The translations under genes and the position numbers were made by a program. The notes under the pieces are model-generated. The model did not search any database and was not told where the DNA came from. It worked only from the letters and a program-made list of their open reading frames with translations. From the IMG/VR virus record IMGVR_UViG_3300022699_000293, positions 1 to 64,000 of that record: DNA of 64,000 nt; one strand, written 5' to 3'. Positions 7,434 to 55,194 of the stretch are shown piece after piece. Origin of the DNA: a virus. Each line of letters begins with the position of its first letter. Position 1 is the stretch's first letter.

Positions 7434-7456
7434 GCAAAAATACCTCCAATGATTTC

Positions 7457-10754: not shown

Positions 10755-10765
10755 TCTTTTTCCTC

Positions 10766-10774
10766 CTATAATGT
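10766..10774 (+). promoter_or_regulatory. Candidate promoter -10 box for the 10805 gene
   Basis: The sequence CTATAATGT, with TATAAT at 10767-10772, sits 32 bases before the plus-strand ATG. The identical nine bases occur upstream of the gene at 56987. A weak TTGCTT lies 17 bases upstream. The box shares the short divergent gap with the start of the minus-strand metallopeptidase/vWA gene. Confidence 0.4.
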
Positions 10775-10804
10775 GATTGAGAAACAAGAAAGAGGTGTAT
10801 TCTC

Positions 10805-12931: not shown

Positions 12932-14166
12932 TATTTATCTCCTCGCAAATCTTGCTCTATCTTAATCTGGCTGTCGTCTAACTGTGTGTGAATTTTAGTC
13001 CACACTTCATGTTCTTGGACTTTGCTGGTCAGCTCAAACAAGTACGGTATTGCTTGATTCTCTTCAGCATACTTTTTCAATTGTGACAAAACAGTAACCT
13101 GTAATTCGTTAGGTAGGTCTGCTAAGTATAAAACCAAGTTACGAGCAGCTTGGGTAACCTCAGGTTGCAAACTGAAAAGATACGTAAGAACGTTTAAGTT
13201 TAGTTCTGTGATTTTTTCGTGTTCTGATTTTTCTAATAGCAAACGTACAGGACGTTGTCCTTTTTCTTCATAATTAAGCAGTACGTCTTCAGCTTTTACA
13301 GCTGTACGATTATCTTTTAAATGCTCTACCAGTTGTTGTGCAGAAGCCATTCCTATCGACGCAGCATAACGACAAAGTGCGAAATCATCGTTAATTGGTT
13401 TTCCAGCTTTTTCTAAGAGGTAGACATCAAGAGATATGGTTTGGACTGTTGCGGGGCACATATATTGTTTGTTTTGTTGTTGTGCTTTTTTATCATACAG
13501 CATCTTAGGGTATTGTGTAACAAAGTTAAGAACTTCTGGGTGGCATGGTCGAGGTTCTCCCAATGCTAATACGTCACTTTCATGAAAACGAGAGCTAGAT
13601 GCGTGGTTCAACCAATCTTTAAAAGATTCTACAGCGTAGAACCATTTCAAACGTCTACGCAATGCCGCGTTATTTTCAATTTGTGTAACCATGTATTGTG
13701 CGGTGGCTGGATTCATGAGAGCAACTACAATTGCCTCGTCTGGAAGGACATAATTGAACATTCGCCTGTCTTCGACTAACGAGAAGAACATAGCAATGCT
13801 GTGTTGAAGACCTTGGTTGATTTCTTCAAACAGCATTATAGCTTTTTCTCCTTGTTTTGGAAAAACAGACGGAACCAGCAAATCAAAATATCCTTCAGGA
13901 GCATCTCTGGTACTAGGGATTCCAGTACCGACTAAGCCGTAATGGGCGGTACGGATATCGTAAATCGAGGCGTTTTCATCTTTTGCAATCTGGGCAACGA
14001 TTTGCGATTTGCCGATACCTGCTTCACCAACAACGCAAATAGCTCCGCGATGTTGCTTCTGTTCCCAGCTTAATTTGATTTGCTCCTGAATTTCACTAAT
14101 TCTCAAACTGGGAATGTCGTACTTTGCTGCGTAAGGTAGGTGTTTGCTGTCTTGTTTTTTTCCCAT
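12931..14166 (-). CDS. MoxR-family AAA ATPase
   Basis: AAA+ ATPase of 411 residues. The Walker A motif GEAGIGKS is at 47-54, the Walker B LFEEIN near 115, a sensor-1 asparagine in ALMNPAT near 150, and an arginine-rich ALRRRLKWF segment follows as the finger region. The C-terminal half is helical and less conserved. The closest family is MoxR, whose members act with vWA proteins; such a partner is at 9219-10754, separated only by a plus-strand island. Its start lies 20 bases from the divergent terminase start, so its promoter must overlap that gene or lie within the gap. An AAAGGT site precedes the ATG. Confidence 0.85.
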   Translation of the reverse strand: MGKKQDSKHLPYAAKYDIPSLRISEIQEQIKLSWEQKQHRGAICVVGEAGIGKSQIVAQIAKDENASIYDIRTAHYGLVGTGIPSTRDAPEGYFDLLVPSVFPKQGEKAIMLFEEINQGLQHSIAMFFSLVEDRRMFNYVLPDEAIVVALMNPATAQYMVTQIENNAALRRRLKWFYAVESFKDWLNHASSSRFHESDVLALGEPRPCHPEVLNFVTQYPKMLYDKKAQQQNKQYMCPATVQTISLDVYLLEKAGKPINDDFALCRYAASIGMASAQQLVEHLKDNRTAVKAEDVLLNYEEKGQRPVRLLLEKSEHEKITELNLNVLTYLFSLQPEVTQAARNLVLYLADLPNELQVTVLSQLKKYAEENQAIPYLFELTSKVQEHEVWTKIHTQLDDSQIKIEQDLRGDK

Positions 14167-18950: not shown

Positions 18951-18951
18951 G

Positions 18952-21900
18952 TTACTCCCATTCTTCATATTGCTTATCAAGCTCTTCTACATTGTAAATT
19001 TCTGTGTCTTCTTTATTGTTTGTTACGTGTGGAACTGTTGAAGGTTTTTGTGCATCTTCGTTCAGCCAGGAACCTGGACGGAATACAATCACATCTTCGA
19101 CAGTCAAACTACCTCCCATATACGGACGAGCACGTTCTAAGATACCTAATTTGCGTATAGCGTCAGGTTTTAAAGCTAAATAGTGACGTTCTAAAACGTC
19201 CCTAACACGTATTTTGGACGCTCGTGCCATTTGGTGGTCTCGTGGAATCAATGCAGGTATAGCTTGACTTAAAAACATTAAAAGATGTTTAGTGACAGAA
19301 TCAAAGTATAAACCACAGGTTTGCGTGTTGATTTCTTCCCTCGTATTTGCATTTCCTAAAATTGCTCCAGCTGACGTTTTTCTCTTTTGGTCAAACAGAT
19401 ACAAGTCACCAAAACTGAGCATATCTTTAAATAAGGATTCAGACTCATTAATGGAAGCTGCTCTATGGATTGTTGTTGCGTTACGTGCCACAAACTTGCG
19501 TAAGAATGCTTGCCAATCATGTCCTAGATATTTAAGAAAAGCCAACACCCCAAATAAGGATGAAGCATATCTCCACTCAATTTTGAATGGAAGCATTGAG
19601 TTTAATTTAGGGAATTGTTGTTTTATTTCGGTGTAATGTTTTAAAATCTCAGGTACTCGAGGATACAAAGCTATTGTAACTTGTCGTGCAAGTTGTTGTA
19701 CGCCTTCTATACCTAAGTTTTTAAGGATAATGTTCTCGGGGCTGTCTCGAGCTTCTGTCTTGTTCATCTCTATGATAAGCATTCGGTTAAGGTCTTGGGG
19801 TCGTTCCGCTCCAGCAATACCTGCCAACATAACAGACATTCCTAAGTAAGCTGCGCGGTATCCTTGACCATCTTTACGTCCTACAACGCGTCGAGATTGT
19901 CCTGTGACAATACCTCGAAGTACTTCTAAAATTTGGATACAATGGTCTCGTTTTTGTCCATCTAACTCGAATTCATCCAAGGCAAGCATCCGTGTATCGC
20001 GGTCAGTAGAATACACAATGCCTGGTTTTGTGTAGTCGTCGATTCCTTGAGAACTGAGGTTTAGGCGAATAGTAGGAACTTGGATACCCCCAAAAATTGA
20101 TAATAGATTCGACTTACCTGAAGATGTTTCGCCGGTGATAAACATGAACATTTGGCGATCAAAAGTATTCATGATGGGCATCAACAATAATTGTGCAGCC
20201 AAAAATCGAGGCATTACTTCATGTGCTGTAAACCGAAAAGCTGTATCAAAAAGTTGTTCTAGTTGCTGGAATAAATTACTTACGTCTAGGTCGGAAGCAG
20301 AATACAAGATTTCTGGAGATAGTCTTCCAGGAAACCAAGGACGTGTATCTTCGTTAGGAGACGTAAAACCTACATCAAACAGTATTCCTTTGTGAGCAGG
20401 GCCTTCCAAGCGTCTATAATTGGGGGTTCCCGAGTCAGAACGATCAAAATAGATCACATCTTTACCGCAAACTACGTACTCATCAGCTTTCCCGTCTTTT
20501 TTGGGAATGTAGTGGTAACCCTGCCGTAAACGTCGAGTTTCTGAGATATCAGGAATACCTTTAGCTAAATCAAGGCAAGCTTCTTTTAGATAATATCTAA
20601 TATTGAGATCCGTGCGTCTCCGACTTTGACCTTCCAATGTTTCTGGATCCTCCAGGAATGAAGGAAAACCTACTTCTTCTCGAATAAATTGAAGAAGATT
20701 TCCTGTCGTAGGAGCCAATTCTTGTGCGATAGCTTGTTCACTATCAAGACGAATTTGACGGTATTCCCGCTCTTTTTTCGCGTACATAAGAAGGGCACGA
20801 TTAGAAGTTTCTCTATTGGTGGCTAAAATCGAAAAGTGATCTTTTAGAGCGTCTGTACATCGTAAAATAAATCCCGACTCGGTATCTTCGCTAGAAGCAA
20901 TTTCTCTTTTCAAAATAGGAACAGAAATTTCATTATAAGTTCGGGACAATTCTATAGAATACTTCTCAATATCGTGACGATGTTTTAAGCAACCTCCAAT
21001 ATCTGCTGCAATTTCTACCATGTTTCTGTAGTCTTGATTGGATGCTTTGCTAATTGCTTCTGTAGCTAATGTCACAGCCCATTGCCAAGAAGGTATGAAA
21101 TTTGATTCAACATTTTTCCAAAGACTATCTTCTATTTTTTGTAAACCATGCTGAAGAATAGCTTCGTCAATATCTCCCGAAGAACCTAATTTATCCCACC
21201 CTACAAATATCCGCGTTTGCAATTCGCGAATTTTGTGTAACCAAAAACGAACTACAACATCCCCTCCTGCTTTACCTTTGTAAGGAGAGTCTCCTATAAG
21301 ATATGCGCCGCTAAATCCTGTAGCTTTGAAAATAGGCTCTACATGCGCGGATCCTCCCTTACCCCCCACAGAAAATAAGGGAAATTTAGGCCCACCAGCT
21401 CTTAGCGATTGTGCCATGTAAGTCATGACATCCATCTCGCCTTCTGTAAGGTACGCCCAACTACTTTTTTGGGAATCAAGTAATGATTGATAATGTTGCC
21501 AACCTAGCCCAAAAATACCTAGCAAATCTTCAAAATCATCAGAAGGAAATATGTAATCTTTTTGTGCCTTACTGTGAGGAGCGCGAATTTTGAGTCTTCC
21601 AATTTCGTCAGGAGTCACATGTAGCGGCCAGATTATACCGCCCAATGTAAAAGGTGTATTAAATGAATCTGCCAAATAATCTATAGCTGGATTAGCTACG
21701 TTTTCTGGAGGTGTGATGTTTCGAACCGTGGCTTTTTCCCATGCTTTGTAAGCGCGGTTATAATCGTTTTCAATTAAATTGCCGAGATCTGCTAAAGGAG
21801 GTACAATCCCTACAGGTAAAGCGTAAAGAGTATCCACGGGTAATTGTCGTTCATTGAGCATCCAGTTTAATGCATCTTTGGCAAAAGGATATTTGTCAGG

Positions 21901-24460: not shown

Positions 24461-25489
24461 ATGGAAAATGAAGATACTTTTACAGATAGAGTTTTACAAA
24501 ATTACTACAAAGATTTAAGCAGGAATTCAATTTTATCTTCTGAGGAAGAACGGAATTTACTTCAACGCTACAACTTTTGTAGCAAATGTAAAACTCGGAT
24601 TCCAAATCGTGTACAGCGTAAATATTGTATCGAGTGTGGTACGCCCATACTTAATGTAGTAGAACACCACACAACCATCTGCAAGGTATGTCGTGCTAAA
24701 TTTGATACCTTCTATACTCCTTCTTATTGTATTCAATGTGGCCAACCTCGAGATCTAGCTGCTCGCGACGAATTAATTAAAGGTAATTTACGTTTTGTAG
24801 TCAAGATGGCTAAATCTATTACAAAAGATCCTTACCGTATTAAACAATTAACTTCTGCTGGAAATCTTGGTTTAATGACAGCTATAGATAAATTCGATGT
24901 TGAACAACCTACACGATTTCTAACATACGCGGCCCATTGGATACGTAAAGAAATGTTTGAAGAAATTCAAAATAGTGATTTAGTTCACATACCTTCGCAC
25001 AAACAAAAAACACAGCGTAAAATTGCCAAACATGGAATTTACGAGTGTGTACATTGTGGCCTTCAGATTGAAGAGAAACATCCTACTAAAAAATTACCTC
25101 CCTGTGTTGAGGAAAAACATGAATTTATCGAAACCAAAGAGACAGAAAATTTAAATACTGTAGTACCTTTAGAACCTAAGTTAACTTCTGTATTACCTGT
25201 CGAAGATCAAACTGAAGAAACTATAGTAGACGTGTCTGCAGCAAATTTGTTAAGAAAAGTATTAAGCAAAGTTAAAGCTAGAGCACGAGATAAATTTATA
25301 TTATTACAATATTATAACGTTCCAGAAGAGTCCCGACGCACTTCTTCTAAAAGTCTACATCAGCTTGCAATTTTAGCAGATATCACGCCTGAGCGTGTAC
25401 GCCAGATTAAACAACGTCTTTTAAAAGAAGTGCGTGGGGAATTATGTCGGATGGCTATCACAGATATGGATGATATTTACGGTATATAA
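24461..25489 (+). CDS. Sigma-70-type sigma factor with inserted zinc ribbons
   Basis: Transcription initiation factor of 342 residues. Region 1.2-like sequence is at about 8-37. Two zinc-ribbon-like clusters follow (C40, C43, C56, C59 and C74, C77, C90, C93) in the place of the usual linker. Region 2 (101-170) includes GNLRFVVKMAK and a FLTYAAHWIRKE segment that would melt the promoter. A third cluster (C196, C199, C215) lies in region 3. Region 4 has the helix-turn-helix ITPERVRQIKQRLLKEVR near the end. It is a lone plus-strand gene between minus-strand operons. It may direct the phage RNA polymerase at 34556-42305 or redirect the host enzyme. Confidence 0.88.
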   Translation: MENEDTFTDRVLQNYYKDLSRNSILSSEEERNLLQRYNFCSKCKTRIPNRVQRKYCIECGTPILNVVEHHTTICKVCRAKFDTFYTPSYCIQCGQPRDLAARDELIKGNLRFVVKMAKSITKDPYRIKQLTSAGNLGLMTAIDKFDVEQPTRFLTYAAHWIRKEMFEEIQNSDLVHIPSHKQKTQRKIAKHGIYECVHCGLQIEEKHPTKKLPPCVEEKHEFIETKETENLNTVVPLEPKLTSVLPVEDQTEETIVDVSAANLLRKVLSKVKARARDKFILLQYYNVPEESRRTSSKSLHQLAILADITPERVRQIKQRLLKEVRGELCRMAITDMDDIYGI

Positions 25490-31950: not shown

Positions 31951-32003
31951 GAAATTTACCTTACACTTTGTTGAAGGTTGGATGGTTACAGGAGAGTAAG
32001 TAC

Positions 32004-33743
32004 ATGGCAAACGAATTTAATACTAGCGATCCCTACTTGTTTACAGGTCGTCGCAATGTAGCGCCACATAGTAATCCTTATCACAGCTATACACAAGTTT
32101 TTAGTCCAAGACGTTTAAAAGACTTGTTTAAATGGTGTGAGTTTTTATTTGCTAATTCTGCCCATATCTATGCTGCTTTGCGGAAATTTGGGGAATACCC
32201 TATTACTGAAATTTTATACGAAACAAATAATGAAACACTTAAAACCAAACATAAAAATATTTTAGAAAAAATTATACACATTCGTGAATTGCTTATTGAA
32301 ATGACCTTAGATAAATACGTGTATGGGAATGCTTTTCTTTCCATGTACCAACCATTTATCCGCTTTTTAAAATGTACTAAATGTCAAACATTGACGAACA
32401 TTCAAAATGTTAAATATGAGTATAATTACCAAGCAATGAAGTTCACGTATGAGTGTCCTGCGTGTCATAAAAAAGTCGTTGCTACAGAAAAACATATTAT
32501 AGATCGAAAAGTTTCGGTTAGTCGCAAAATTAATTTTATTCGATGGGATCCTAAAAAAATAGATATCGACCATAACCCCCTAACAGGAGCTTCAGTTTAT
32601 TATTACAATATTCCAGAATCTGTAAAAGAAAGCGTAAAAAAAGGACATAAGTTTTTAATAGACAGTATGCCTTTAGGCTTTTTGAAAGCAATAAAAGAAA
32701 AACAACAATTCAGATTTGCTCCTGGATATATTTTTCATATGAAGATAGGAGGTCCCGCAGGTATTAATCCGCAATGGGGACTGCCTCCGTTACTTTCGAC
32801 ATTACAATTGTTCCATTATACCGCTATTTTAAGAAAAGCTAACGAAGCTATTTCTCTGGATTATTTAACTCCTCTTCGTATTGTCCACCCAGCACCGCAA
32901 AGTGGTAACGCAGATCCTGTCACTACAATTAGTTTACAAGAGTGGCAACAAAACTTAAAAGGAAATATAAAGGATTGGAGACAAGATCCTTTACATATGA
33001 TGTTTGCACCTGTTCCTGTAGGAATGACGCAAGTAGGGGGACAAGGACGAGCATTATTAACTTTAGGAGAAGTGCAAGAAGCGGAAAAAAATATTGTAGC
33101 CGCTTTAGGAATTCCTCTAGAATTTCTTTACGGAGGCTTAACGCGAAGTGGTATGGAAGCTACTTTAAGATTAATAGAGAATCAATTAGAGACACACATT
33201 AGTGATTTGAATGACTGCATACAATGGATATCTGATAATTGTGCTAAGTTTTTGGGTTATGATAAAGTTTCTATGGAATTAGCCCCGTTCCGGATGATCG
33301 ACGACCAAACACAAAAGAATATTTCGTTACAATTATACCAAGCAGGACACCAACTAGGTCGGAAAATAATTTCGGAAAAAACCATAGCAGAACAGAACAA
33401 CTTGGATTTAGACAAAGAAGAAGATCGCATCAAACAAGAAGAGCTGGATGCTGTGCGGCGTGATGCAGAATTGCAAATCGAGATAAGTAAGCTACAAAAC
33501 AACATGGCAAATCGAATTAGGCAAGAAACCCAACAAAGCGAAATGGCTATGGGTGGTGGTGGTGCTCCTACAGGTTATAACCAACAACAAGTAATTGCAC
33601 AAGCTGATCAACTTGTAGCACAATGGGCACAAATGGAAGAAGGGAGACGTAAAAGTATGATGGATTCTTTAATGAAAGAAGACTTCGTGTTGTACTCTGT
33701 AGCTATGCAACGTTGGGAAGACTTTGAACAACAACAACAATAA
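32004..33743 (+). CDS. Portal protein
   Basis: Forms the dodecameric ring through which DNA enters the head. This 579-residue protein has the portal core with a GPAGINPQWGLPPL segment, a LTLGEVQEAEKNIVAALGIPLEFL stretch and GLTRSGMEATL, followed by a long helical, Gln-rich C-terminus. An unusual zinc-ribbon-like insertion with CTKC (about 123) and CPAC (about 151) sits in the N-terminal half. The start at 32004 follows a GGAGAG site; the upstream frame overlaps the divergent helicase. It opens the long plus-strand late block but is separated from terminase by about 16 kb. Confidence 0.85.
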   Translation: MANEFNTSDPYLFTGRRNVAPHSNPYHSYTQVFSPRRLKDLFKWCEFLFANSAHIYAALRKFGEYPITEILYETNNETLKTKHKNILEKIIHIRELLIEMTLDKYVYGNAFLSMYQPFIRFLKCTKCQTLTNIQNVKYEYNYQAMKFTYECPACHKKVVATEKHIIDRKVSVSRKINFIRWDPKKIDIDHNPLTGASVYYYNIPESVKESVKKGHKFLIDSMPLGFLKAIKEKQQFRFAPGYIFHMKIGGPAGINPQWGLPPLLSTLQLFHYTAILRKANEAISLDYLTPLRIVHPAPQSGNADPVTTISLQEWQQNLKGNIKDWRQDPLHMMFAPVPVGMTQVGGQGRALLTLGEVQEAEKNIVAALGIPLEFLYGGLTRSGMEATLRLIENQLETHISDLNDCIQWISDNCAKFLGYDKVSMELAPFRMIDDQTQKNISLQLYQAGHQLGRKIISEKTIAEQNNLDLDKEEDRIKQEELDAVRRDAELQIEISKLQNNMANRIRQETQQSEMAMGGGGAPTGYNQQQVIAQADQLVAQWAQMEEGRRKSMMDSLMKEDFVLYSVAMQRWEDFEQQQQ

Positions 33744-34555: not shown

Positions 34556-37500
34556 ATGCCTAAGCTAACACCTTTGATGATAGGTCCAGATCAACGTAGA
34601 ACTCTTATTCACGAAAAAGTGAAAGAGGGTTTGAATGAATCATTTCCTATACAGTCTCGGAATAAGACATTGGAAGTGAAAGATCTTCGCATAATAAATA
34701 AAGACTATACGCCGACAGAACAGAAACGCGCAATTCTTTCTGGAGATTCTCTCTTTGAATCTGTTAAAGGAACTGTAAGTATAAAAGATAAGAAGGGTAA
34801 AATTTTAGATGAAGCCAAAAACTTTACTTTAGTCCGAATTCCTTATTTTACTCCTCGACATACTTTTATCATTGGGGGTAACGAACATTCTGTTTCTAAT
34901 ATGGTACGTCGTAAACCGGGAGTTTATTCTCGTAAAAGAGCTAATGGTATTTTAGAGGCAGGGTTTAACACCATCGGAGGATCTAATTTTCGAGTAAGCA
35001 TGGATCCTTCTAAAGGACAGCCACAATTAGAATACGGGTCGACTAAAATTCCATTATATCCTATTTTACGTAAATCTGGAATTTCTCACGACAATATAGC
35101 TAAAGCGTGGGGGTCTAAATTAGCAGATATTAATGAAAAAGAACTATCTTCTAAAACAGACAGATATATTGATAAGTTATATAACAAAGAAATTCCTCCT
35201 TATTTTAGAGACGAAACAAAAACTTCTCAGGAAAAAATGGAGGATATTTTAACACGTTATAAAGATGCTAAAATGGATCCTGAAGTTAATCAAAAAACTT
35301 TAGGACGTCCTCACACGCATGTTACTCCTGACAGTTTGCTGGACGCGTCTACTCGTGTATTGAAAATATTTAACAAAGAAGAAGACGTGGACGATCAAGA
35401 TAATTTGGGCTTTAAAACATTAATGTCTGTTGATGATTTTTTTAAAGAGCGTATAAAATTACACGCTAGAAACGTTGCTAATAAAACAGCGATAAAAATG
35501 GAAAGAACCCCGCAACTTAAGAAAGCATTACCTCCAGGCCCATTTACAAAAGATCTGTTACAATTTATTTCTACTTCCTCTTTGTCTTCAATTCCAGATC
35601 AAACTAACCCTGTGGATTTGATTGACTCAGCTATGAGAGTAACGTCTTTAGGTGAAGGTGGAATCTCAACTGAACGTGCTATTCCTATCGAAGCTCGACA
35701 AACCCATGTAACTCAAATGGGTGCTTTAGATCCTATTAGAACACCAGAATCTAGTCGTGCCGGTATTGATGTAAGAGCTGCAGTAACAGCTCAACGAGAT
35801 GAAAATGGAGATATCTACGTTCCTGTTTACGACGTAAAAAGTCAACGAGAAAAATACATTAAAGCAGGTCACCTCCAGGACTCTGTTGTAGCTTTTGCGA
35901 ACCAACCCTTGAAAGGGTCTGTTGAGGCTGTCGCACGAGGTGTTGTTCGTCGTGTACCTGCACGAGAAGTAGACTACCAAATACCGCACCAATCTCGTTT
36001 ATACAGTGCTACAACAAACTTAATTCCTTTTTTGGAATCGGCACAAGGCAATCGAGCTGTAATGGGTTCGAAAATGCAAGTGCAAGCGTTATCCTTGGTT
36101 AATCGTGACGCTCCTTATGTTCAAGTTGCGACGCCTTCACAAAAATCTTTCGAACGAATGATAGGTAAGATTGTTAATCCCCATTCTCCAGTATCAGGCA
36201 CTGTTAAAAAAATAGATAATGATTACATTTACGTGTTGCCCGACCAAGAAAAACAAGCCGCAATTAACAAAGCTATTAAAATTCCTTATGACAATAATTT
36301 TCCGTTAGCTACCAAAACATATTTAAATCATGATTTGTTTGTCAAACCTGGAGATAAAGTTAAGAAGGGTCAAACTTTAGGTACTTCTAATTTTACTAAA
36401 AATGGGGTTTTGGCACTAGGTAAGAACATGAGTGTTGCTTACATGCCGTATTACGGAAAAAATTCTAATGATGCGGTAGTGATTAGCGACAAAGCAGCAA
36501 AAAACTTAACGTCTGAACGTATGTATAAAATCGTAGTACCTCAAGAACCCAACTTAACTTTAAACCAAAACAAACATAAAACGTATTACGGGCATAGATA
36601 TAAAAAGGATCAATATAGAAGGTTAGACAAAGATGGAGTAATCGAAGCAGGTACTAAATTAACTCCACACGACCCATTGGTGGTAGGTGTTCGAAAAACT
36701 GAATTATCTCCGGATGACTTAATACTAGGACGATTGCATCGTTCTCTTGCAAACCCTTACAAAGAATTTAAACACGAGTGGGATCACGATTATGAAGGAG
36801 AAGTTGTAGATGTAGTCAAAACACCTAAACGTGTAACCATGACAGTTAAAACACGAGAACCTGCACGAATAGGAGACAAGTTAAGTGGGCGTTTTGGGAA
36901 TAAGGGGGTTGTTTCTGAAATCATTCCTCAAGATGAAATGGTTAAGGATGAGGCTGGAAAGCCTATTGATATTATTATGACTTCCGCTGGTGTTGTGTCA
37001 CGAATTAATCCTAGCCAAATTATAGAAACAGCGGTAGGGAAAGTTGCTGAAAAAACAGGAAAACCAATTATTGTAGATAACTTTACTAGAAAAGATAATG
37101 TTAAATGGGCAAGAAAATTATTAAAAGAACATGATTTAAAAGATAAGGAAACTGTTTACGATCCAAAATCAGGAAAAAAAATTCCTAACATTATGGTAGG
37201 TCGTCAATATCTTTATAAGTTATCTAAATCTACTGATACAAATTATAGTGCTCGAAGTATGGGTACTTATGACATGAATATGCAACCAACTCGGGGAGGA
37301 ATTCAAGGAGCTAAGGCTTTAGGCAAAATGGAATTCGATGCTTTGCTAGGTCATAATGCACGCAATATTTTAAGAGAAGCTGCTACAGTTAAAAGTCAAA
37401 AGAATGATGAATTTTGGCGTGCTATTCAACTAGGTCAAATGCCTCCTACACCAAAATCTATTTTTGCTTACGATAAATTTCTCAACATGTTGAAAGGTGC

Positions 37501-38917
37501 AGGTGTTCGCGTAGACCGCGAAGGTAGTAAAATGTCTTTAGCCCCCCTTACGGACAAAGATGTTACTGAAATGTCTTCCGGTGAAATCAAAGATGCTAAG
37601 ATAGTACGCGCCAAGGATTTACGTCCGGAAACCGGAGGTTTGTTTGATCCGGGAATAACTGGAGGTTTACGAGGAACTCGCTGGTCTCATATTTCTTTGG
37701 CTGAACCTATAATTAACCCTGTATTTAAAGAACCTGTTAGGCGGTTACTAGATATGTCTAACGCACAATTGACAGATACGCTAAAAACTAAAGGAGGAAA
37801 TCATATTAAAAAAGAATTGGGTAAGATTGATTTGGATGCTAAAGAAAAAGAGCTTAAACGACAATTAAAGAAAAAGAATCCAAGTCAAGTAGATAATTCT
37901 TTAAAACAAATAAAATACATACGCGCATTAAAAAAATTAAATTTAAAACCTGATGAAGCGTATACAATGACGAAAGTACCCGTTGTTCCGCCGGTGATTC
38001 GTCCTGTAGTACCCGGTAAAGGTGGGACACAACTTGTTTACGGTGATGCCAATCCTTTATACCAAGATTTGATTTATATTAATAATCAAATGAAAGAAAT
38101 AAAGGATCCTAAAAATCCTACACCTCCGGGTGAAGAAGAAAAACTTAGACCTTCATTGCAACAAGCTGTAGGCGCAGTTTATGGGACTGATGAGCCCGCC
38201 ACAGCAAAATCTCGAGGACGAAAGCATAAAGGTTTTTTAACTTATATCTCGGGAGAGGGAGGACCAAAGCATGGATTTTTTCAATCAAAGTTGATGTCTC
38301 GAGCTCAAGATATGGCTGGGAGAGGAACAATTGTTCCTGACAGTACTTTGGGAGTAGATGAGATTGGCGTACCTGAAGAAATGCTATGGACGATGTACCG
38401 AGATTTTATCATCAGGGGCTTAGTTCAAAAAGGTTTTCCGGCTATCCAAGCTCGTCAAATGGTGGAAGACAAACATCCAGCTGCAAAAGATACGCTAAAC
38501 CGAATTATTAAGGAACGTCCTGTATTAATGAACCGCGCACCTACGTTACACAGGTACAACATTGTAGGAGCTAAACCTGTACCTGTACCAGGACGTACAT
38601 TACGAGTTAATCCTTTTATAGAAGCGCATATGAATGCAGATTATGACGGAGATGCAATGACCCTACATGTTCCCATCTCGCCTGCTGCTGTTAAAGAAGC
38701 GGAGGATATTACGCTTTCTAAACTTTTATACGGGGATAAAACCAAAAATGACTTATTAGTTTTCCCACAGCACGAAGCGATAATGGGGATACACCAAGCT
38801 AGTGGCGCGGACGATAAGAATACAATACCTAAAAAATTTAAAAATCAGGGTGAAGCAATAGCAGCTTACAAACGTGGAGAAATTGGACTAGGAACTCGGG
38901 TAACTATTGGAAATTAA
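34556..38917 (+). CDS. RNA polymerase: beta fused to the N-terminal half of beta-prime
   Basis: Multi-subunit-type RNA polymerase chain of 1453 residues. Beta features: TFIIGGNEHSVSNMVRRKPG (about 103), GDKLSGRFGNKG (about 772), NPSQIIETAVG, and MGTYDMNMQPTRGGIQGAK (about 901). Beta-prime begins near 980 with SSGEIKDAKI, then KVPVVPPVIRPVV, VLMNRAPTLHR and the catalytic NADYDGDAM (about 1359), and stops soon after a VFPQHEAIMGIHQAS segment. The N-terminal zinc site of beta-prime is missing. Thus active-site aspartates are here and the bridge helix is in the gene at 40509. The ATG at 34556 has AAGGAG upstream. No alpha or omega homologue is seen. The fused and split form differs from the phiKZ pattern of split subunits. 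Confidence 0.94.
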   Translation: MPKLTPLMIGPDQRRTLIHEKVKEGLNESFPIQSRNKTLEVKDLRIINKDYTPTEQKRAILSGDSLFESVKGTVSIKDKKGKILDEAKNFTLVRIPYFTPRHTFIIGGNEHSVSNMVRRKPGVYSRKRANGILEAGFNTIGGSNFRVSMDPSKGQPQLEYGSTKIPLYPILRKSGISHDNIAKAWGSKLADINEKELSSKTDRYIDKLYNKEIPPYFRDETKTSQEKMEDILTRYKDAKMDPEVNQKTLGRPHTHVTPDSLLDASTRVLKIFNKEEDVDDQDNLGFKTLMSVDDFFKERIKLHARNVANKTAIKMERTPQLKKALPPGPFTKDLLQFISTSSLSSIPDQTNPVDLIDSAMRVTSLGEGGISTERAIPIEARQTHVTQMGALDPIRTPESSRAGIDVRAAVTAQRDENGDIYVPVYDVKSQREKYIKAGHLQDSVVAFANQPLKGSVEAVARGVVRRVPAREVDYQIPHQSRLYSATTNLIPFLESAQGNRAVMGSKMQVQALSLVNRDAPYVQVATPSQKSFERMIGKIVNPHSPVSGTVKKIDNDYIYVLPDQEKQAAINKAIKIPYDNNFPLATKTYLNHDLFVKPGDKVKKGQTLGTSNFTKNGVLALGKNMSVAYMPYYGKNSNDAVVISDKAAKNLTSERMYKIVVPQEPNLTLNQNKHKTYYGHRYKKDQYRRLDKDGVIEAGTKLTPHDPLVVGVRKTELSPDDLILGRLHRSLANPYKEFKHEWDHDYEGEVVDVVKTPKRVTMTVKTREPARIGDKLSGRFGNKGVVSEIIPQDEMVKDEAGKPIDIIMTSAGVVSRINPSQIIETAVGKVAEKTGKPIIVDNFTRKDNVKWARKLLKEHDLKDKETVYDPKSGKKIPNIMVGRQYLYKLSKSTDTNYSARSMGTYDMNMQPTRGGIQGAKALGKMEFDALLGHNARNILREAATVKSQKNDEFWRAIQLGQMPPTPKSIFAYDKFLNMLKGAGVRVDREGSKMSLAPLTDKDVTEMSSGEIKDAKIVRAKDLRPETGGLFDPGITGGLRGTRWSHISLAEPIINPVFKEPVRRLLDMSNAQLTDTLKTKGGNHIKKELGKIDLDAKEKELKRQLKKKNPSQVDNSLKQIKYIRALKKLNLKPDEAYTMTKVPVVPPVIRPVVPGKGGTQLVYGDANPLYQDLIYINNQMKEIKDPKNPTPPGEEEKLRPSLQQAVGAVYGTDEPATAKSRGRKHKGFLTYISGEGGPKHGFFQSKLMSRAQDMAGRGTIVPDSTLGVDEIGVPEEMLWTMYRDFIIRGLVQKGFPAIQARQMVEDKHPAAKDTLNRIIKERPVLMNRAPTLHRYNIVGAKPVPVPGRTLRVNPFIEAHMNADYDGDAMTLHVPISPAAVKEAEDITLSKLLYGDKTKNDLLVFPQHEAIMGIHQASGADDKNTIPKKFKNQGEAIAAYKRGEIGLGTRVTIGN

Positions 38918-40507
38918 ATGACTCATTCTTCACCAGCGCAGCGTACTGCAGCCTGGGCTAATCGGAAATACCCAGATGTAGAAAACTTGAATACTGTTTT
39001 AGTAGATAGTCCAAGTACTAGCCTACGAATGACAAAAAAAGATGTATTAGATTATTATACAACACCAGAGGTGCAACGTAACTTGTTGCCCCAATTACGT
39101 CAAAAAGATTTAATTGCCTTAGTTGCTAGAGATCCTAACAATCCAATAATCAGAAGGTATCGTAGAAGAAAGGAACCTGTCCGCATATCTGATAAAAAAG
39201 ACTTAGATTGGTATGCCAAGCGCAGATATGTTGAATTTCACCCAACGTTAAAATCCAAATCTAAAGAGTTGTGGGTAGACTTGGATGCGGGTAAGAATGT
39301 AGGTATCGACGAAATAAAACCTGCAGTTAAAGATGTACAAAAAGCTGTTTCTAAAATCCCCAACATTAAAAAAACGGACATAACATTTTCTGGTGGTCGA
39401 GGTTTTCATGTTCGAGGAGAGTTAAATAAAGAACAAAGAACAAGTTCCTTAGAAAAAGTTATCAAACGCGTTATGGCTCGTTTGGCACGACGAAATAAAC
39501 GTTACACTACACGCCCTCCCAAAACCAATGAAATTCGTCTTGACACTTCTACGTTTCACGAACGAGGTTCAATACGCGCTCCTTTTTCACTTAATCAAAA
39601 AACAGGATTAGTTTCAGTTCCTGTAAAAAATAATCATTTAAAATCTTTTGATCCTATTGCTCATGCTAACCCTTGGGCAGTGATTGCTGAATTACGACGT
39701 AAAAAGAAAACTTCGCGTGAATTTGCTCCAGGCATTCCCGAAAATAGAGCTATTAAATCTTTACCTAGCTTTAAACAACCTAAATCGTGGATTATGTCTG
39801 TTCAAGAGCATGACGCAAAAAAAGCAGGAAAACATTACGATTTACGTTTAGTGGATCCTTGGAGTGACTACGCTCACTCTTGGGCAATCCCTAAAAGTAA
39901 ACTACCTCGAGCAGGAGAAAAACCTGTTCTAGCAATCCAAACTCCTACACATACATCGAACTATGCATTAACCTTTGGAGCTAAAAAACCTGAGCATATT
40001 GCCAAGGGCTACGGAGCAGGCACAGTACAAATAAAACATAAGGAACCTGTACAATTAACTTCTTCTCCAGATTTTATTAAATTCAAAAGACAAAAAGGTC
40101 GTGGCCAAGAAGAAAATTTTGTGCTATTCCGAACTAAAGGAGATTCTTGGTTATTACGTAATGTGACAAAATCGGGAACAGTAAAGGAAGCTGTAATGAG
40201 TTCTTTATATTGGAATGGATTTGAAGAAACGCTACAAAAATTAGGTATGTCTAATGAAGTGCGTGCGGCTATAAAACAACGTGGTCAATCGGAAAATATG
40301 CAACAATCTTTAGAAACAGAAGATCAAGGATTACCTTCTGCGGCTTTAGCTAAACAACTACAGAAATTACCTGTACCTGAAATTGTACACAAAAATAAAG
40401 GACAAGATAGCGTTGAAAATAGACTAAATAGATCTGTATCTTGGGGACCTAAACAAGAAATTTCACATGAAGTTGCTACGGGACCTTCCCCGATAATGGG
40501 AATTTAA
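38918..40507 (+). CDS. Archaeo-eukaryotic primase-like (PrimS/LigD polymerase) and LigD-type 3'-phosphoesterase fusion
   Basis: A 529-residue protein placed exactly between the two halves of RNA polymerase; its ATG follows the previous TAA directly. The primase/polymerase (AEP) domain has the DLDAG metal motif (about 120-124), SGGRGFHVRG (about 158) and GSIRAPFSLNQKTGL (about 217). From about 290 a LigD-like 3'-phosphoesterase domain shows VQEHDAKK, HYDLRL, HSWAIPK, a PTHT histidine and YGAGTVQIK. LigD-type repair enzymes carry both activities with a ligase; here no ligase domain is visible. It could prime, fill gaps, or clean 3' ends. Domain calls rest on motif order; activity is not shown. 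Confidence 0.82.
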   Translation: MTHSSPAQRTAAWANRKYPDVENLNTVLVDSPSTSLRMTKKDVLDYYTTPEVQRNLLPQLRQKDLIALVARDPNNPIIRRYRRRKEPVRISDKKDLDWYAKRRYVEFHPTLKSKSKELWVDLDAGKNVGIDEIKPAVKDVQKAVSKIPNIKKTDITFSGGRGFHVRGELNKEQRTSSLEKVIKRVMARLARRNKRYTTRPPKTNEIRLDTSTFHERGSIRAPFSLNQKTGLVSVPVKNNHLKSFDPIAHANPWAVIAELRRKKKTSREFAPGIPENRAIKSLPSFKQPKSWIMSVQEHDAKKAGKHYDLRLVDPWSDYAHSWAIPKSKLPRAGEKPVLAIQTPTHTSNYALTFGAKKPEHIAKGYGAGTVQIKHKEPVQLTSSPDFIKFKRQKGRGQEENFVLFRTKGDSWLLRNVTKSGTVKEAVMSSLYWNGFEETLQKLGMSNEVRAAIKQRGQSENMQQSLETEDQGLPSAALAKQLQKLPVPEIVHKNKGQDSVENRLNRSVSWGPKQEISHEVATGPSPIMGI

Positions 40508-40508
40508 T

Positions 40509-42305
40509 ATGACTACACAAACTTTTGGGCGATACTTACTTAACCAACATATTCCTAAAGATTATCAATTGTCGGGAGAATCTGGGAAAAAAGAATTACG
40601 TACCAAAATGAACGCATTGGCAAAAAAAGATCCGGTGGCTTATGTGAAAACAATTACAGATCTTAAGCGTGAAGGTGATTTCTTAGCTACAATGTCGGGA
40701 CTTTCTGTGGGCTTGGATGATATTTCACCGGCACCGACACGCGATGAAGTATTGAAACCTTTGGTATCTGCTTTTAATCGCGCACAAACAGATAAACAAA
40801 GACGGCGTATTGCCGAACAAGCACAGGAAAAATTACTCAGTACTGTATCCAAACATCCAGGATCCATGACACAACAAGTAAAAAGTGGGGCTCGAGGAAA
40901 ACCTGTACAGTATATGAAAATTGTCGCATCTCCTGCTGCAGCTAGAGATTCTTACGGATATACAGAACCTTGGTTGATTACTCGGTCATATGCCGAAGGT
41001 TTACGCCCTTCTGATTATTGGGTTGCGGGTAACGAAGCTATCTTAGACACTATCAAAAGCACTGTTTCAGTGTCTGAACCAGGGGAATTGACTAAAGTCC
41101 TTATGAGTAATATGGCAGATACGCTTGTAATTGAAATTGATTGCGGCACACATAATGGTATTTCCTTAAATGTTAGTGACTCTAATATTTTAGACAGGTA
41201 CTTGGCTCGAGATACCGGACGCTTTAAGCGTAATACTTTAATTACATCACAAGTACAAACGGCTTTAAAAAAAGCAGGAAAACAAAAAATCCTGGTACGT
41301 TCTCCTATGACTTGTGAGTCTGATGATGGAGTTTGTCAGAAATGCCAAGGGTTGGATGAGAAAGGTAATCCTCAAGAATTGGGTGTGAACGTTGGTGTGC
41401 GTGCAGCTTCTGCGTTAGGGGAACCTTTAAGTCAATTTGCCTTGGATGCTAAGCACGGAGTACGTACGGCTAAAGGAGATCGTGCTAGATTGCAAGGAGT
41501 TTCTGGCTTTCGTCAAATAATAGAATCGCCACAACAATTTTTAAACAAAGCAACTCTTGCGGAACACGGCGGGAATGTAGATAAGATTGAAACTGCTCCT
41601 CAGGGAGGTCATTTCGTATACGTGAATGCTAAAAAACATTTTGTACCTCCTAATTTACAAGTAACAGCAAAAAAGGGGGATTCCATAGAACCAGGAGATT
41701 CTCTTAGTGAAGGCATTCCCAAACCTGATGAAATAGTTCGTTACAAAGGACTCGGTGCAGGACGGCAGTATCTTGTAAATACTTTGCGTGATTTGTATGC
41801 TAATCAAGGACGAGACTTAGATCAGAGACATTTTGAATTATTAGCAAAGAACGAATTGAACCATGTGCGCGTTTTAGAAGATCCAGGTAACAATTTTTTA
41901 AAAGGAGACGTGGTATCTTATAATGCTCTTCGATCTACATTAGCTAAACAATCAAAAGAAATACCTATTAACGAGTCGTTAGGGCAAGTATTAGGAAAAC
42001 CTTACTTTCATTTTTCTGTAGGTCAGCGTATTACTCCAGCAGTTCTTCACTATTTAAAGAAAGAAGGTTTGAAATCTGTACTCATTGCTTCAAAAGCACC
42101 TAATGTAGAATTTATTATGAAACCTGCAACACGCGCACCCTTGTTAAACCCTGATTGGATGGCTCGATTAGGTCACAGGTACTTAAAAACAACTCTAAAG
42201 GAAGCTGCTCATTTTGGGGATATTTCTAATTTACAAGGTACCCACCCTGTTCCTGCTTACGCTGCTGGCGTAAACTTTGGTCAGGGAAAACAAGGACGCT
42301 ATTAG
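40509..42305 (+). CDS. RNA polymerase beta-prime, C-terminal half
   Basis: This 598-residue chain continues the beta-prime subunit where the protein at 34556 ends. It starts with FGRYLLNQHIPK, matching the TTVGRALL segment of cellular beta-prime. It has SGARGKPVQYMKI and the bridge-helix region (about 135-175), the second zinc site in TCESDDGVCQKC (about 265-276), then LGVNVGVRAASALGEPLSQFALDAKH. The end corresponds to the clamp and jaw region. It must pair with the fused beta/beta-prime chain to make a working enzyme. The start ATG lies two bases after the primase/phosphoesterase stop, so all three are one operon. Confidence 0.92.
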   Translation: MTTQTFGRYLLNQHIPKDYQLSGESGKKELRTKMNALAKKDPVAYVKTITDLKREGDFLATMSGLSVGLDDISPAPTRDEVLKPLVSAFNRAQTDKQRRRIAEQAQEKLLSTVSKHPGSMTQQVKSGARGKPVQYMKIVASPAAARDSYGYTEPWLITRSYAEGLRPSDYWVAGNEAILDTIKSTVSVSEPGELTKVLMSNMADTLVIEIDCGTHNGISLNVSDSNILDRYLARDTGRFKRNTLITSQVQTALKKAGKQKILVRSPMTCESDDGVCQKCQGLDEKGNPQELGVNVGVRAASALGEPLSQFALDAKHGVRTAKGDRARLQGVSGFRQIIESPQQFLNKATLAEHGGNVDKIETAPQGGHFVYVNAKKHFVPPNLQVTAKKGDSIEPGDSLSEGIPKPDEIVRYKGLGAGRQYLVNTLRDLYANQGRDLDQRHFELLAKNELNHVRVLEDPGNNFLKGDVVSYNALRSTLAKQSKEIPINESLGQVLGKPYFHFSVGQRITPAVLHYLKKEGLKSVLIASKAPNVEFIMKPATRAPLLNPDWMARLGHRYLKTTLKEAAHFGDISNLQGTHPVPAYAAGVNFGQGKQGRY

Positions 42306-50028: not shown

Positions 50029-52110
50029 ATGCTTTCAAAAATATTACATTTAGATTCGCATTTCCCTACAGGCGAGTTAACAGTACAGCCTGTATTTTTG
50101 TGGGCTAATGGAAAAGCATGTCTTGAAAATATAAGCAAGTATGCAAGTGTGGGTCACGATTACTTCAAAACAATTGAACCTATTCCCGGACACTCCGTTG
50201 TTTATGTTCTTGCTGTTAGTGGTTGGGAAACTTACGGAGAAAATAAAAATGGGGACGGTTTTCCTGAATTCCCATATAAAGAAGATTCTTCTCCACCATG
50301 GATTGCTCCTGATGAAGTTCTTCCGTTACATTATAAATCTTTTGAAAAACACGGAAATAACTTTCGACATCATCAAAATAAAGATCCTAAAAAAGCTGTA
50401 GGGAAAGTTATAAAATCTTTTTGGAATCCTACAATGCACCGAGTTGAACTTCTAATTGATTTAGAAGATGAAAAAGCTCCAGATTTAGCGGAAAGAATTG
50501 CTTCCGGTGAATTCCCTCCTGTTAGTATGGGAACTCGAGTTAGGTACGATGTTTGTAACATTTGCGGTAATCGCGCACCTACTCGTGCTCAATATTGTGA
50601 CCATCTTAAATTTCAAATGAAGCAGACACTACCAGACGGTAGAACTATTTGTGCTTTAAACCCTAATCCTAAATTTTTTGATATTAGTTGGGTTTTTAAA
50701 CCAGCAGACCCGACAGCGTATATGCTAAAAAAAGTAGCTGATAACGAACCTTATGAGTTGTCAGGTGCAGCTGCAGGAGAGTACTTAGACAAGATGGCGG
50801 AACGAAAATTAGCCGCTAAAAAATTAGCTGTAATTGACAAACTTATTCAAGGTTATCCTCTAGACGCTAAATGCGAAGGATTTAATCCCTCCGATATACA
50901 TAACATTCAAGCTATAAGAGATCTTGTTCTATCCGTAGTAGACGACATTCCTGAATTCTCAGACGATACTTTGAAAGAATTGTCGATCCACCCTCTTAAC
51001 AAAATTTTTTCTACTTTGTTTTCAGGAGGAATTTCTCTTTCTACTCCGGAGTTAGTAAAAATAATCGTCTATAAAAATTATCCTAATACGGAAATAGGGG
51101 ATGATATTTTAGACAAGTGCGTTATTATGCAACAACCTTTAAGGGAATTTATTGAAGATTGTCCCCAAATTATGGATCAGTTTGAAAAAGATGGGTACTT
51201 TGACTTAGGTATCGATAAAGTAGATACCAAAATAGCTTCAATTGTTGATCCTTATTTTGAAAAACGTTCTGGTATTCCTCAATATTTAAAACGACAATTT
51301 GTACCTTCAAAATATCGAGATGTGCCTGAGCCTAAAACAACACCTCTTACCGTTAGTGATCCAGTTACAGGAACTCGATACCAAACTACACGAGGTGCTG
51401 CTCTAACGGCACATGACGAAATAGCTAAAAAGAATTTAATGAAAGTTTTGGGGGGTGCTGCTTTGTTGGGCGGTGCTTATAAGTTACTTGGAACAGGTTT
51501 AGAGCATATAGGGAAACGAAAATTAAAACCACTATTAGGGTTATCTTTAGCAGGTTTAGGTGTTAGTCAGTGGCCTGATATGGGTCCGCATTACAGGACA
51601 GACCAAGGCGTTCCTGTGCCGACATTGACTGAAATGGTACCTAAGCAGGCAGCTATAACATCTTCTTTAGCATTGCCTGCTTTAGGTACTTTAGCAGCTA
51701 TGACTGCTTTGGGCTTAGACTATAAATCTCGATTACGGCGAGGAGAACCTATAGGGCATCCTGCATTACCTTTATCTCGACGACTATTGGATAGGGTTGA
51801 ACGTTTTACTTATGAGCACCCTGTAGTTACTGCTATTGGTGGAACAGCTGCCTTGAAAGGTCTTGGAAAAATTCCTCTTGTGCAGAAAGGTATGGGTTAT
51901 GCCGGACGTGCAGGAGAATATGCAAAAAGAAAAGCTCAAGATGCTGCTTCAAATGTGCGCGATGCTTTTCGTACTATGGCTCGGGAACGTGTAAAAGTAT
52001 CTGAACTTCTCGAACCAGATTTACCAACACCTACAGGTACAGTAGAATTGCCCCCTATAGATTTGGATAAAATAGCTACAAAAATTGGTTATCTAATTTG
52101 GGAAGGCTAA
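50029..52110 (+). CDS. Putative prohead maturation protease with C-terminal hydrophobic extension
   Basis: A 693-residue protein. Residues about 25-240 resemble phage prohead proteases of the herpesvirus-like serine protease fold: a His-rich FEKHGNNFRHHQN segment (about 105-117), AVGKVIKSFWN, and PVSMGTRV with the candidate nucleophile Ser near 165. The His-to-Ser spacing (about 55) is in the range for that fold. A CNIC ... YCDH cluster (about 175-191) may bind zinc. The C-terminal 250 residues have three hydrophobic segments, unusual for a protease, so it may be fused to another module. It directly precedes the scaffold candidate and capsid genes. The N-terminal assignment is moderately supported; the rest is unknown. 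Confidence 0.6.
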   Translation: MLSKILHLDSHFPTGELTVQPVFLWANGKACLENISKYASVGHDYFKTIEPIPGHSVVYVLAVSGWETYGENKNGDGFPEFPYKEDSSPPWIAPDEVLPLHYKSFEKHGNNFRHHQNKDPKKAVGKVIKSFWNPTMHRVELLIDLEDEKAPDLAERIASGEFPPVSMGTRVRYDVCNICGNRAPTRAQYCDHLKFQMKQTLPDGRTICALNPNPKFFDISWVFKPADPTAYMLKKVADNEPYELSGAAAGEYLDKMAERKLAAKKLAVIDKLIQGYPLDAKCEGFNPSDIHNIQAIRDLVLSVVDDIPEFSDDTLKELSIHPLNKIFSTLFSGGISLSTPELVKIIVYKNYPNTEIGDDILDKCVIMQQPLREFIEDCPQIMDQFEKDGYFDLGIDKVDTKIASIVDPYFEKRSGIPQYLKRQFVPSKYRDVPEPKTTPLTVSDPVTGTRYQTTRGAALTAHDEIAKKNLMKVLGGAALLGGAYKLLGTGLEHIGKRKLKPLLGLSLAGLGVSQWPDMGPHYRTDQGVPVPTLTEMVPKQAAITSSLALPALGTLAAMTALGLDYKSRLRRGEPIGHPALPLSRRLLDRVERFTYEHPVVTAIGGTAALKGLGKIPLVQKGMGYAGRAGEYAKRKAQDAASNVRDAFRTMARERVKVSELLEPDLPTPTGTVELPPIDLDKIATKIGYLIWEG

Positions 52111-54282: not shown

Positions 54283-55194
54283 ATGGATTATAACGTTGAA
54301 ACACCTGAAGCAAGCGCACAGCTTATTAATTCTAGTTTCGTACGGAAGCTCGAAGAAGGTCGTGTGAAGGAAGCCGCAGACCAGAGTACAGCTTTTATTC
54401 GCGAAAAGCTACGTCAAGAAGCTGCCGTCCGAGAATTAATGGCTCCGGAAGGTATTTCTGAAGAAGAAATCGACCGGGACGAAGACACGGACCAACCAAA
54501 GAAAATTATCGACAAAGAACCGGACTCGTACGCTACATTCGTACAGTTCCAAGGTTCTGGTCCGCGCACATGGTTTAAAGGACCCCGTTACGCTATTTAT
54601 TTTGGTAAGGTAGAATCTCAGCGCTTTACCAAGAATAAATGGGAATTAATGTCCTATACCAGCGACATTAGGAAGATTCTGTCTGACAATTCTGTAAAGG
54701 ACATGGCAGACGAGGAAGATTCCAAGTGGAATAATCTCGTAACCGACATCATTAACGGGAACCCGCTAGAACAACGTACGGCAGGACCATTTCAAAGTAC
54801 CACGTTTAAGCGTGCTATGCAGAAAATGATCGGTCGTCGGCGTCCTATCGGTAAGATGCTAATGACGAAATATCGTTATTTCGATGCTTTAGATCTTCCC
54901 GCTTTGAGCGTTGGTGATGATATTGCTACGCGTCATTTTGACGAGGGTATCGAAGCTTCTGAAAAGTTATGGGGTCTTCCAGTAGTAACTACTATCAAGG
55001 GAGACATCTACGACGAAAGTAAAGCGTGGATCTTTTCACCGCAAAAGCCTAATAACTATTTAGGGAACTTTTACCTTCTGCAAGATGCTACATTGTTTAT
55101 CAAGCAAGAAGCAGATGTCATCATGTTCTGGAGTTACGAAGCTCCGGGTATTGGAATAGGTAATCGTTTATCGATGCAAGAAATTCAGTTCTAA
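54283..55194 (+). CDS. Major capsid protein
   Basis: A 303-residue protein with an excellent GGAGG ribosome binding site and codon usage richer in C-ending codons than its neighbours, as expected for the most abundant virion protein. The N-terminal 80 residues are charged and may be a delta-like region removed on maturation. The rest has mixed alpha/beta segments and ends in a beta-rich part (ADVIMFWSYEAPG). It follows the protease, scaffold and decoration candidates in the standard order. Fold family is inferred from context; cleavage is possible but not shown. Confidence 0.7.
   Translation: MDYNVETPEASAQLINSSFVRKLEEGRVKEAADQSTAFIREKLRQEAAVRELMAPEGISEEEIDRDEDTDQPKKIIDKEPDSYATFVQFQGSGPRTWFKGPRYAIYFGKVESQRFTKNKWELMSYTSDIRKILSDNSVKDMADEEDSKWNNLVTDIINGNPLEQRTAGPFQSTTFKRAMQKMIGRRRPIGKMLMTKYRYFDALDLPALSVGDDIATRHFDEGIEASEKLWGLPVVTTIKGDIYDESKAWIFSPQKPNNYLGNFYLLQDATLFIKQEADVIMFWSYEAPGIGIGNRLSMQEIQF

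Follow-up and report, generated by a model that had tools for sequence, protein, structure and literature searches.

A phage RNA polymerase with its beta-prime subunit split around a gene for a LigD-type primase/polymerase and 3'-phosphoesterase

One important question raised by this locus is how an RNA polymerase (RNAP) came to be encoded with its beta-prime subunit in two pieces, and whether the gene between them is an invader or a functional partner. Split phage RNAPs are under dispute, being regarded either as pre-cellular relics made of many parts (Iyer et al. 2021, PMC7824862) or as whole enzymes that were broken up. The locus was analysed in a window of 64,000 nucleotides, the whole stretch of DNA under study (IMG/VR record IMGVR_UViG_3300022699_000293); all features given below lie on the plus strand.

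The first gene (34556..38917) encodes a chain of 1453 aa in which beta and the N-terminal part of beta-prime (a clamp remnant and the double-psi barrel) form one ORF. Pfam domains Rpb2_3, Rpb2_6, Rpb1_1 and Rpb1_2 were identified in it, and it matches gp206 of Salmonella phage Arash over the full length with 36% identity. The ATG at 34556 fits the N-terminus of gp206, an in-frame upstream TTG at 34532 being a less likely start. The catalytic motif NADYDGDAM (38633..38659), at which relatives including L005 and L060 carry inteins, occupies residues 1360-1368, 85 residues from the C-terminus. ORF coordinates, Pfam domains and motif position thus agree with the first-pass annotation, which had read this gene as beta plus beta-prime up to just past the motif. 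It had also placed the resumption of beta-prime, at the equivalent of TTVGRALL, in the third gene (40509..42305, 598 aa), and this was borne out by the N-terminus MTTQTFGRYLL, a TTVGR-type segment, and by the Pfam domain Rpb1_5. This second chain contains the TTxGR segment, the bridge helix, the Zn2 cysteines and the trigger-loop region; when aligned with Arash gp216 and Vibrio phage D181, the Zn2-site residues C212, C269, C276 and C279 and residues K315/H316 of the trigger-loop region were all invariant. Cellular-type beta and beta-prime with NADxDGD are therefore recognisable, and beta-prime is cut between the double-psi barrel and TTxGR. This confirms that the two beta-prime halves stand around another gene. 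The split site is a recurrent one, as phiKZ-type and cyanobacterial RNAPs also have their beta-prime cut behind the double-psi barrel (PMC7598289).

The middle gene (38918..40507) encodes a protein of 529 aa, identified from Pfam, fold and 32 orthologous loci as a LigD-type AEP primase/polymerase joined to a 3'-phosphoesterase (PE) and hereafter named AEP-PE. Its AEP domain (residues 38-277, 39029..39748) carries the invariant residues D121, D123 and D209 and an SGG-x-G motif, whereas the PE domain (residues 291-421, 39788..40180) has invariant H298, H306, D308, R310, H345 and Y349. The C-terminal tail (residues 422-529, 40181..40504) is mostly low-confidence or disordered, with few invariant residues (K441, D469, W509 and G528). 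Pfam matches to LigD_Prim-Pol (3e-15) and LigD_N (6e-8) agree with the predicted fold, which gave TM 0.71-0.73 (by target length) with the polymerase domain of Mycobacterium tuberculosis LigD and TM 0.82, at 35% identity, with the archaeal PE 3P4H; hence the domain assignment made at first sight is upheld. The AEP fold is nearest to the LigD polymerase and not to replicative PrimPols. An ATP-dependent ligase domain is absent from the protein. Ku was found in none of 50 records, including that of the window, and no ATP DNA ligase, NAD ligase or RNA ligase was found in the records of the AEP-PE clade; the completeness of these IMG/VR contigs is unproven, and the missing genes may lie in unrecovered sequence.

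Relatives of AEP-PE in viral contigs were recovered by an alignment-based search, a single-sequence search having returned none; annotated phages and plasmids gave no match to the middle protein, and the sole result of a scan of genome contigs was a distant AEP from a Parcubacteria MAG. In all 32 AEP-PE loci beta-prime-N lies directly upstream, and beta-prime-C lies downstream in all 28 that reach far enough. This placement is far beyond chance. The catalytic residues of both domains are invariant in 17-19 orthologues, and the AEP motif-II histidine (H164) is replaced by tyrosine in several of them. Values of dN/dS were 0.04-0.08 in the three pairs with computable dS (1.9-2.8, nearly saturated), and to judge from these ratios the gene is under strong purifying selection. 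Clade member L014 retains only the C-terminal end of AEP-PE, indicating that the gene is dispensable there.

The clean stop/start junctions and the lack of intron or intein remnants that had been reported from the letters were both found again. TAA is directly followed by ATG between the first and second genes, and the second and third meet as TAA-T-ATG; across AEP-PE loci, tight junctions (within -11 to +3 nt) were present at 13 of 17 5' ends and at 16 of 17 3' ends. Because AEP-PE begins and ends right at the stop and start codons of the flanking RNAP halves, its translational coupling to both, and joint production with them, is probable. Promoter and terminator scans returned sites no more numerous than in shuffled sequence, so the limits of the operon were judged from this coupling alone. 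Neither inteins nor introns were found in the window copies, whereas inteins are present in the same genes of close relatives. An intein site as the cause of the split was considered and dropped, as the inteins are inserted at NADYDGD, some 85 residues short of the junction.

The same beta/beta-prime-N fusion and split point, together with the order portal-RNAP-capsid, were found in Arash, in Vibrio phage D181 and in dozens of IMG/VR contigs; the chain plan is also that of Vibrio phages D148 and D69 and of the majority of about 60 further IMG/VR loci. The layout had been set apart from that of phiKZ-type phages; this difference stands, but the split is not peculiar to the window phage. The gene order is thus widespread as far as the split RNAP is concerned, although AEP-PE is restricted to one clade and a few deeper branches. 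In the literature we found, the plan is not described as such.

Window phage and Arash-type lineage share the order portal-RNAP-protease-MCP, with homologous proteins. The portal protein (31968..33743, 30% identity to Arash gp204) lies upstream of the RNAP as in Arash; its ORF opens with TTG at 31968 and homology begins near 32004. The head maturation protease-like protein (50029..52110) matches phrog_18299 (3e-11) and Arash gp222 (35%), and the major capsid protein (54283..55194), which gave no Pfam match, resembles Arash gp226 (37.5%) and Vibrio phage D proteins. In the Arash virion both RNAP chains are among the most abundant proteins, with 3516 spectra for gp206 and 1210 for gp216 (PMC10585845), that is, about 2.3 and 2.0 per residue of annotated length, compatible with a near 1:1 ratio. 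Hence the window enzyme is probably also a virion RNAP, by analogy with Arash at 31-36% identity. A protein with sigma-70 region 2 (Sigma70_r2, 1e-11) and a double zinc ribbon (24461..25489) is a probable phage sigma factor. The window terminase matches GpA_ATPase (2e-14) more strongly than PF03237 (4e-4), and no diversity-generating repeat pair was found for the RT gene near 8 kb.

In an RNAP tree of 70 rows, made by a quick method and with several long branches, exactly one change from unsplit to split was obtained, its direction depending on the bacterial outgroups; the split clade had an SH-aLRT support of 99. Contaminating bacterial rpoB-rpoC is the apparent source of the matches labelled 'Listeria', 'Staphylococcus SA 1306' and fecal 'phage', and two such records were kept solely as outgroups. 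All unsplit relatives in the lineage have one beta-beta-prime chain of about 2,000-2,570 residues in an uninterrupted ORF. Together with the single change in the tree, this indicates that the split RNAP is derived from a single-chain ancestor. In some members of the lineage beta is separate again.

LigD-type modules recur in several forms, mostly within or close to the RNAP locus, and do so in phages with unsplit beta-prime as well. A PE-ligase lies in the gap or downstream of a single-chain RNAP (L060, L062, L147), an AEP-kinase-PE within the gap of L125, and a PE-ligase-AEP elsewhere in the genome of the single-chain phage L123; AEP and PE as separate proteins are a further form. Both AEP and PE are present in L143 and L144, the two single-chain phages that form the sister group of the split clade. 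Since most split relatives outside its clade lack AEP-PE, the gene in its present form did not create the split; an older LigD-type insertion is a possible cause.

The best reading, which we consider probable, is that of an operon for a split virion RNAP that also includes a LigD-derived end-healing enzyme free of Ku and ligase. The three genes would form one operon in a tailed-phage lineage with its own cellular-type RNAP, in which a single beta-beta-prime ancestor was broken once after the double-psi barrel and the two chains reassemble. Encoded amid portal and capsid genes, the RNAP would be packaged and injected, as suggested by Arash, and transcribe early genes. Judging from family and conserved residues, the AEP domain would extend 3' ends and fill gaps, preferably with ribonucleotides, and the PE domain would strip 3'-phosphates and trim 3' ribonucleotides, leaving a ligatable 3'-OH for a host ligase to seal. 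AEP-PE would most likely mend broken or gapped phage DNA, either late in infection or directly after the DNA is injected, and would not be an RNAP subunit.

The tight coupling, the fixed position in 32 of 32 loci and the repeated occurrence of PE proteins near unsplit RNAPs could also point to a true RNAP partner, one that attaches to the divided beta-prime and either processes the 3' ends of transcripts or passes primers between transcription and replication. This is unlikely: AEP-PE has the domains of a LigD repair enzyme, sister forms have a ligase or a kinase instead, and in the split relatives Arash, D181 and L028-L042 other genes occupy the gap and AEP-PE was not detected. Moreover, the rate of change is higher in AEP (mean distance 0.54) than in the RNAP (0.36-0.39), and AEP follows the divergence of the RNAP no more closely than that of the portal; such co-divergence therefore does not speak for contact. 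We give somewhat less credence to a LigD-type gene that entered an unsplit beta-prime and caused the split, AEP-PE and PE-ligase being its descendants. The AEP and PE of L143/L144 fit such an event, as do PE genes located in the gap in both branches that part at the deepest fork of the split clade, whereas the PE tree is weakly resolved, many gaps hold unrelated genes, and on the Arash side PE is on the opposite strand among many genes and missing from most members. It is a doubtful, speculative extension that module and virion RNAP are one functional unit, in which the module split beta-prime and its descendants, still coupled, are co-packaged and co-injected and clear template breaks before the first transcription.

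Priming of replication is a frequent task of AEP proteins in mobile elements (PMC5862659) and the catalytic aspartates are conserved, yet a replication primase merely located in the RNAP operon is improbable, as the window has a DnaG-type CHC2 zinc-ribbon protein of 1136 aa adjoining a family-A DNA polymerase and the AEP fold is of the LigD kind. To our knowledge, the PE domain has no role in replication priming. Finally, the RNAP genes of this lineage have been repeatedly invaded by inteins, and by a homing endonuclease in D181, as would suit a recent selfish gene or an assembly accident within a contiguous beta-prime. Either is scarcely credible and contradicted by the comparative data: an identical junction is seen across many samples, in contigs independent of one another, purifying selection on the gene is strong, its protein has no endonuclease, and the split also occurs in phages without the gene. 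Of the alternatives first proposed for the middle gene, a recent invader can therefore be set aside.

With a single chain outside, one split to two chains and beta separated again in some members, the lineage shows the order of events, and the choice between relic and break-up becomes directly testable with enzymes still alignable to bacterial RNAP. The two-protein RNAP is typical of a large, little-studied virus lineage in which the LigD-type gene recurs in changing forms. LigD combinations in or beside an RNAP locus are undescribed in the literature we found, and through them phages may possess a way of healing DNA ends without Ku that is tied to transcription by the virion enzyme.

AEP-PE resembles LigD in its AEP and PE folds with conserved catalytic residues, and Pol and PE are separate in Methanocella NHEJ. 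The order in LigD is Pol-PE-Lig in Mycobacterium and PE-Lig-Pol in Pseudomonas, so the window protein matches the mycobacterial one; it differs from LigD in having no ligase domain, no Ku detected, an extra C-terminal tail and a place in a phage RNAP operon. Cyanobacterial and plastid beta-prime likewise consists of two polypeptides (PMC10802570), rpoC1 and rpoC2, divided after the double-psi barrel (PMC7598289). Theirs is a cellular enzyme, however, with beta separate and a large Si3 insertion. We know of no AEP-PE gene between rpoC1 and rpoC2. The virion and non-virion RNAPs of phiKZ/AR9-type jumbo phages have four or five chains, with beta itself split, are far more divergent and lack a beta/beta-prime-N fusion. 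The multimeric RNAP-encoding Caudovirales (mReC), partly mined from IMG/VR (Weinheimer & Aylward 2020, PMC7481178), are tailed phages with recognisable beta and beta-prime in a deep clade apart from cellular RNAPs, with a PF07068-type MCP and a PF03237-type large terminase as further criteria; the accessible portion of that paper describes no split, single-chain fusions or LigD modules. In Arash the gap is occupied by nine other genes, several of which run in the opposite direction, D181 has an additional homing-endonuclease split within beta, and no AEP or PE domain was found in either genome. Arash (gp206/gp216) and D181/D148/D69 are like the window phage in having the portal upstream of the RNAP and a related MCP and protease downstream.

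Three adjoining genes, all on the + strand, make up the RNA polymerase (RNAP) locus of the window, which lies in a record of 87,130 bases. Gene 1 (34556-38917) encodes a beta/beta-prime fusion that ends 85 residues past NADYDGDAM, gene 2 (38918-40507) combines a LigD-type primase/polymerase (AEP) domain with a LigD-type 3'-phosphoesterase (PE) domain, and gene 3 (40509-42305) encodes beta-prime from the TTxGR segment onward. Stop and start codons abut at both junctions, and no inteins were found in the window copies. The first-pass annotation, which had described a beta-prime interrupted between these two motifs by an AEP-PE gene with stop/start junctions and no intein remnants, is correct as worded.

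The three-gene arrangement is real and well conserved. A search with an alignment of 17 orthologues placed AEP-PE beside RNAP genes at 32 IMG/VR loci, with beta-prime-N upstream in 32/32 and beta-prime-C downstream in all 28 with enough sequence. The orthologues are 32-60% identical to the window protein, and in the aligned set no substitutions occur at AEP residues D121, D123 and D209 or at PE residues H298, H306, D308, R310, H345 and Y349. The AEP motif-II histidine (SGGxGFH, residue 164 of the window protein) is replaced in many orthologues (L005, L006, L011, L012) by tyrosine, which is unusual for AEPs. The fold, predicted with a mean pLDDT of 80 and with values of about 90 or higher across most of the two domains, matched the Mycobacterium tuberculosis LigD polymerase (TM 0.71-0.73), the archaeal PE 3P4H (TM 0.82) and the Methanocella NHEJ polymerase. 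The dN/dS values were 0.04-0.08, from the only three pairs in which synonymous change was not fully saturated, and stop/start codons overlapped or abutted at most junctions (13 of 17 upstream, 16 of 17 downstream). Together, these findings indicate an old gene that is kept by selection and is probably coupled to the adjoining RNAP genes. In locus L014 it is reduced to its C-terminal end, with new genes alongside; therefore, AEP-PE can be lost.

Related modules were found at other phage loci. A sister clade carries PE-ligase fusions in the gap between the beta-prime halves (L027, L043, L061), with PE also demonstrated in L034 and L036, and the gap of L125 (3358-6453, +) holds one 1031-residue ORF with AEP, P-loop kinase-like and PE domains, possibly an all-in-one end-healing enzyme. 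PE-ligase proteins are also encoded downstream of single-chain RNAPs in L060, L062 and L147, all with PE, the ligase being matched by Pfam in L060 and L147 and by record search in L062. L123 (4732-8163, +) encodes a LigD-like PE-ligase-AEP protein with a LAGLIDADG intein inserted at the PE domain, and AEP and PE are separate genes in L124; the phages of both loci have single-chain RNAPs and branch as sisters of the split clade, with support 93. These LigD domain combinations point to nucleic-acid end repair, and suggest that the lineage carried LigD-type genes before beta-prime was split, or at about that time. Ku was not found in the 50 records searched, nor ATP DNA ligase, NAD ligase or RNA ligase in the AEP-PE-clade records (both sets being contigs, possibly incomplete).

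LigD AEP domains add ribonucleotides or dNTPs at 3' ends and gaps, and LigD PE domains remove 3'-phosphates and 3'-ribonucleotides. By analogy with this biochemistry, the AEP of the window protein would extend 3' ends or gaps with either substrate, and its PE would strip 3'-phosphates and 3'-ribonucleotides, leaving the ends for a host ligase. The region at 15.9-22.4 kb encodes a DnaG-type protein along with a family-A polymerase, which makes a replication-primase role for AEP-PE less likely. A direct partnership with RNAP is possible, but AEP diverges more quickly than RNAP, and its divergence follows that of RNAP no more closely than it follows that of the portal. The family-A polymerase gene (15957-18980, -) shows a weak uracil-DNA-glycosylase-like match at its N-terminus. 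Elsewhere in the window, a retron-like reverse transcriptase (7457-8593, -; best PADLOC matches RT_III-A and RT_XIII) is flanked by two genes without assigned function (6006-7460, 8594-9208), and no diversity-generating repeat pair was found for it. A DUF2201 metallopeptidase/VWA-like gene (9219-10787, -) and a nearby AAA_5 ATPase gene (12931-14166, -) resemble a MoxR-VWA pair, in a phage.

The split layout, which the first-pass annotation contrasted with the four chains of phiKZ-type phages, is shared by relatives. The same end point of a fused beta/beta-prime-N chain and a separate beta-prime-C were found in Salmonella phage Arash (gp206/gp216) and in Vibrio phages D181, D148 and D69, the beta of D181 carrying one further break. 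Among 76 loci from an alignment-based scan of IMG/VR, most of those showing both halves had two beta-prime genes with 0.4-9 kb of variable content between them. On these comparisons the split RNAP is the trait of a lineage, not of the window; this lineage already has isolates and is probably also represented by the published mReC (multimeric RNAP-encoding Caudovirales) group. The LigD-type gene in the gap, with its shuffled relatives, appears undescribed in the literature searched.

The portal, head maturation protease-like and major capsid proteins are homologous and in the same order in the window and Arash. In Arash virions gp206 is the top protein by spectra (3516) and gp216 is within the five most detected (1210 spectra), although the authors warn of possible carry-over of abundant infected-cell proteins (PMC10585845). 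From these counts and the annotated lengths, ~2.3 and ~2.0 spectra per residue were obtained, consistent with a packaged enzyme whose two chains are about equally abundant. The synteny and the Arash data suggest that RNAP, and perhaps the AEP-PE enzyme, would be part of a virion-forming gene block. The window also encodes a protein in which sigma-70 region 2 is fused to a double zinc ribbon (24461-25489, +), probably a sigma factor for the phage RNAP.

Beta and beta-prime form one uninterrupted ORF in L057, L060, L062, L065, L066, L070/L071, L074 and L076, to which further searches added L143, L144 and L147-L153 (L153 cut at its start). These ORFs span about 2,000-2,570 residues, some with inteins, and no description of such phage RNAPs was found in the literature searched. 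On a 70-row beta-prime tree with bacterial outgroups, built by a quick method and with long branches among the single-chain rows, exactly one change separated unsplit from split, and the split clade had an SH-aLRT of 99 (also 99 with 73 rows). With no split in bacterial beta-prime or in the other outgroups, the tree indicates that the split form is the derived one and arose from a single-chain ancestor. A few members (L056, L059, L064 and others) again have beta as a gene of its own. The RNAP genes are a mobile-element hot spot: close relatives carry, within the reading frames of these genes, insertions containing LAGLIDADG or intein-splicing domains (notably at the NADYDGD site in L005 and L060, and in beta in L030), and in D181 (L002:8958-9906) beta is broken into two genes with a homing endonuclease gene between them. 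The beta-prime split does not coincide with intein sites.

This series from single-chain to split enzymes appears undescribed in the literature searched. The phiKZ-type and cyanobacterial beta-prime are, as in this lineage, divided after the double-psi barrel (PMC7598289), so breakage seems to be tolerated there. This lineage does not fit the proposal, made for phiKZ-type enzymes, that the separate pieces of phage RNAPs are a primitive state and did not arise by splitting (PMC7824862).
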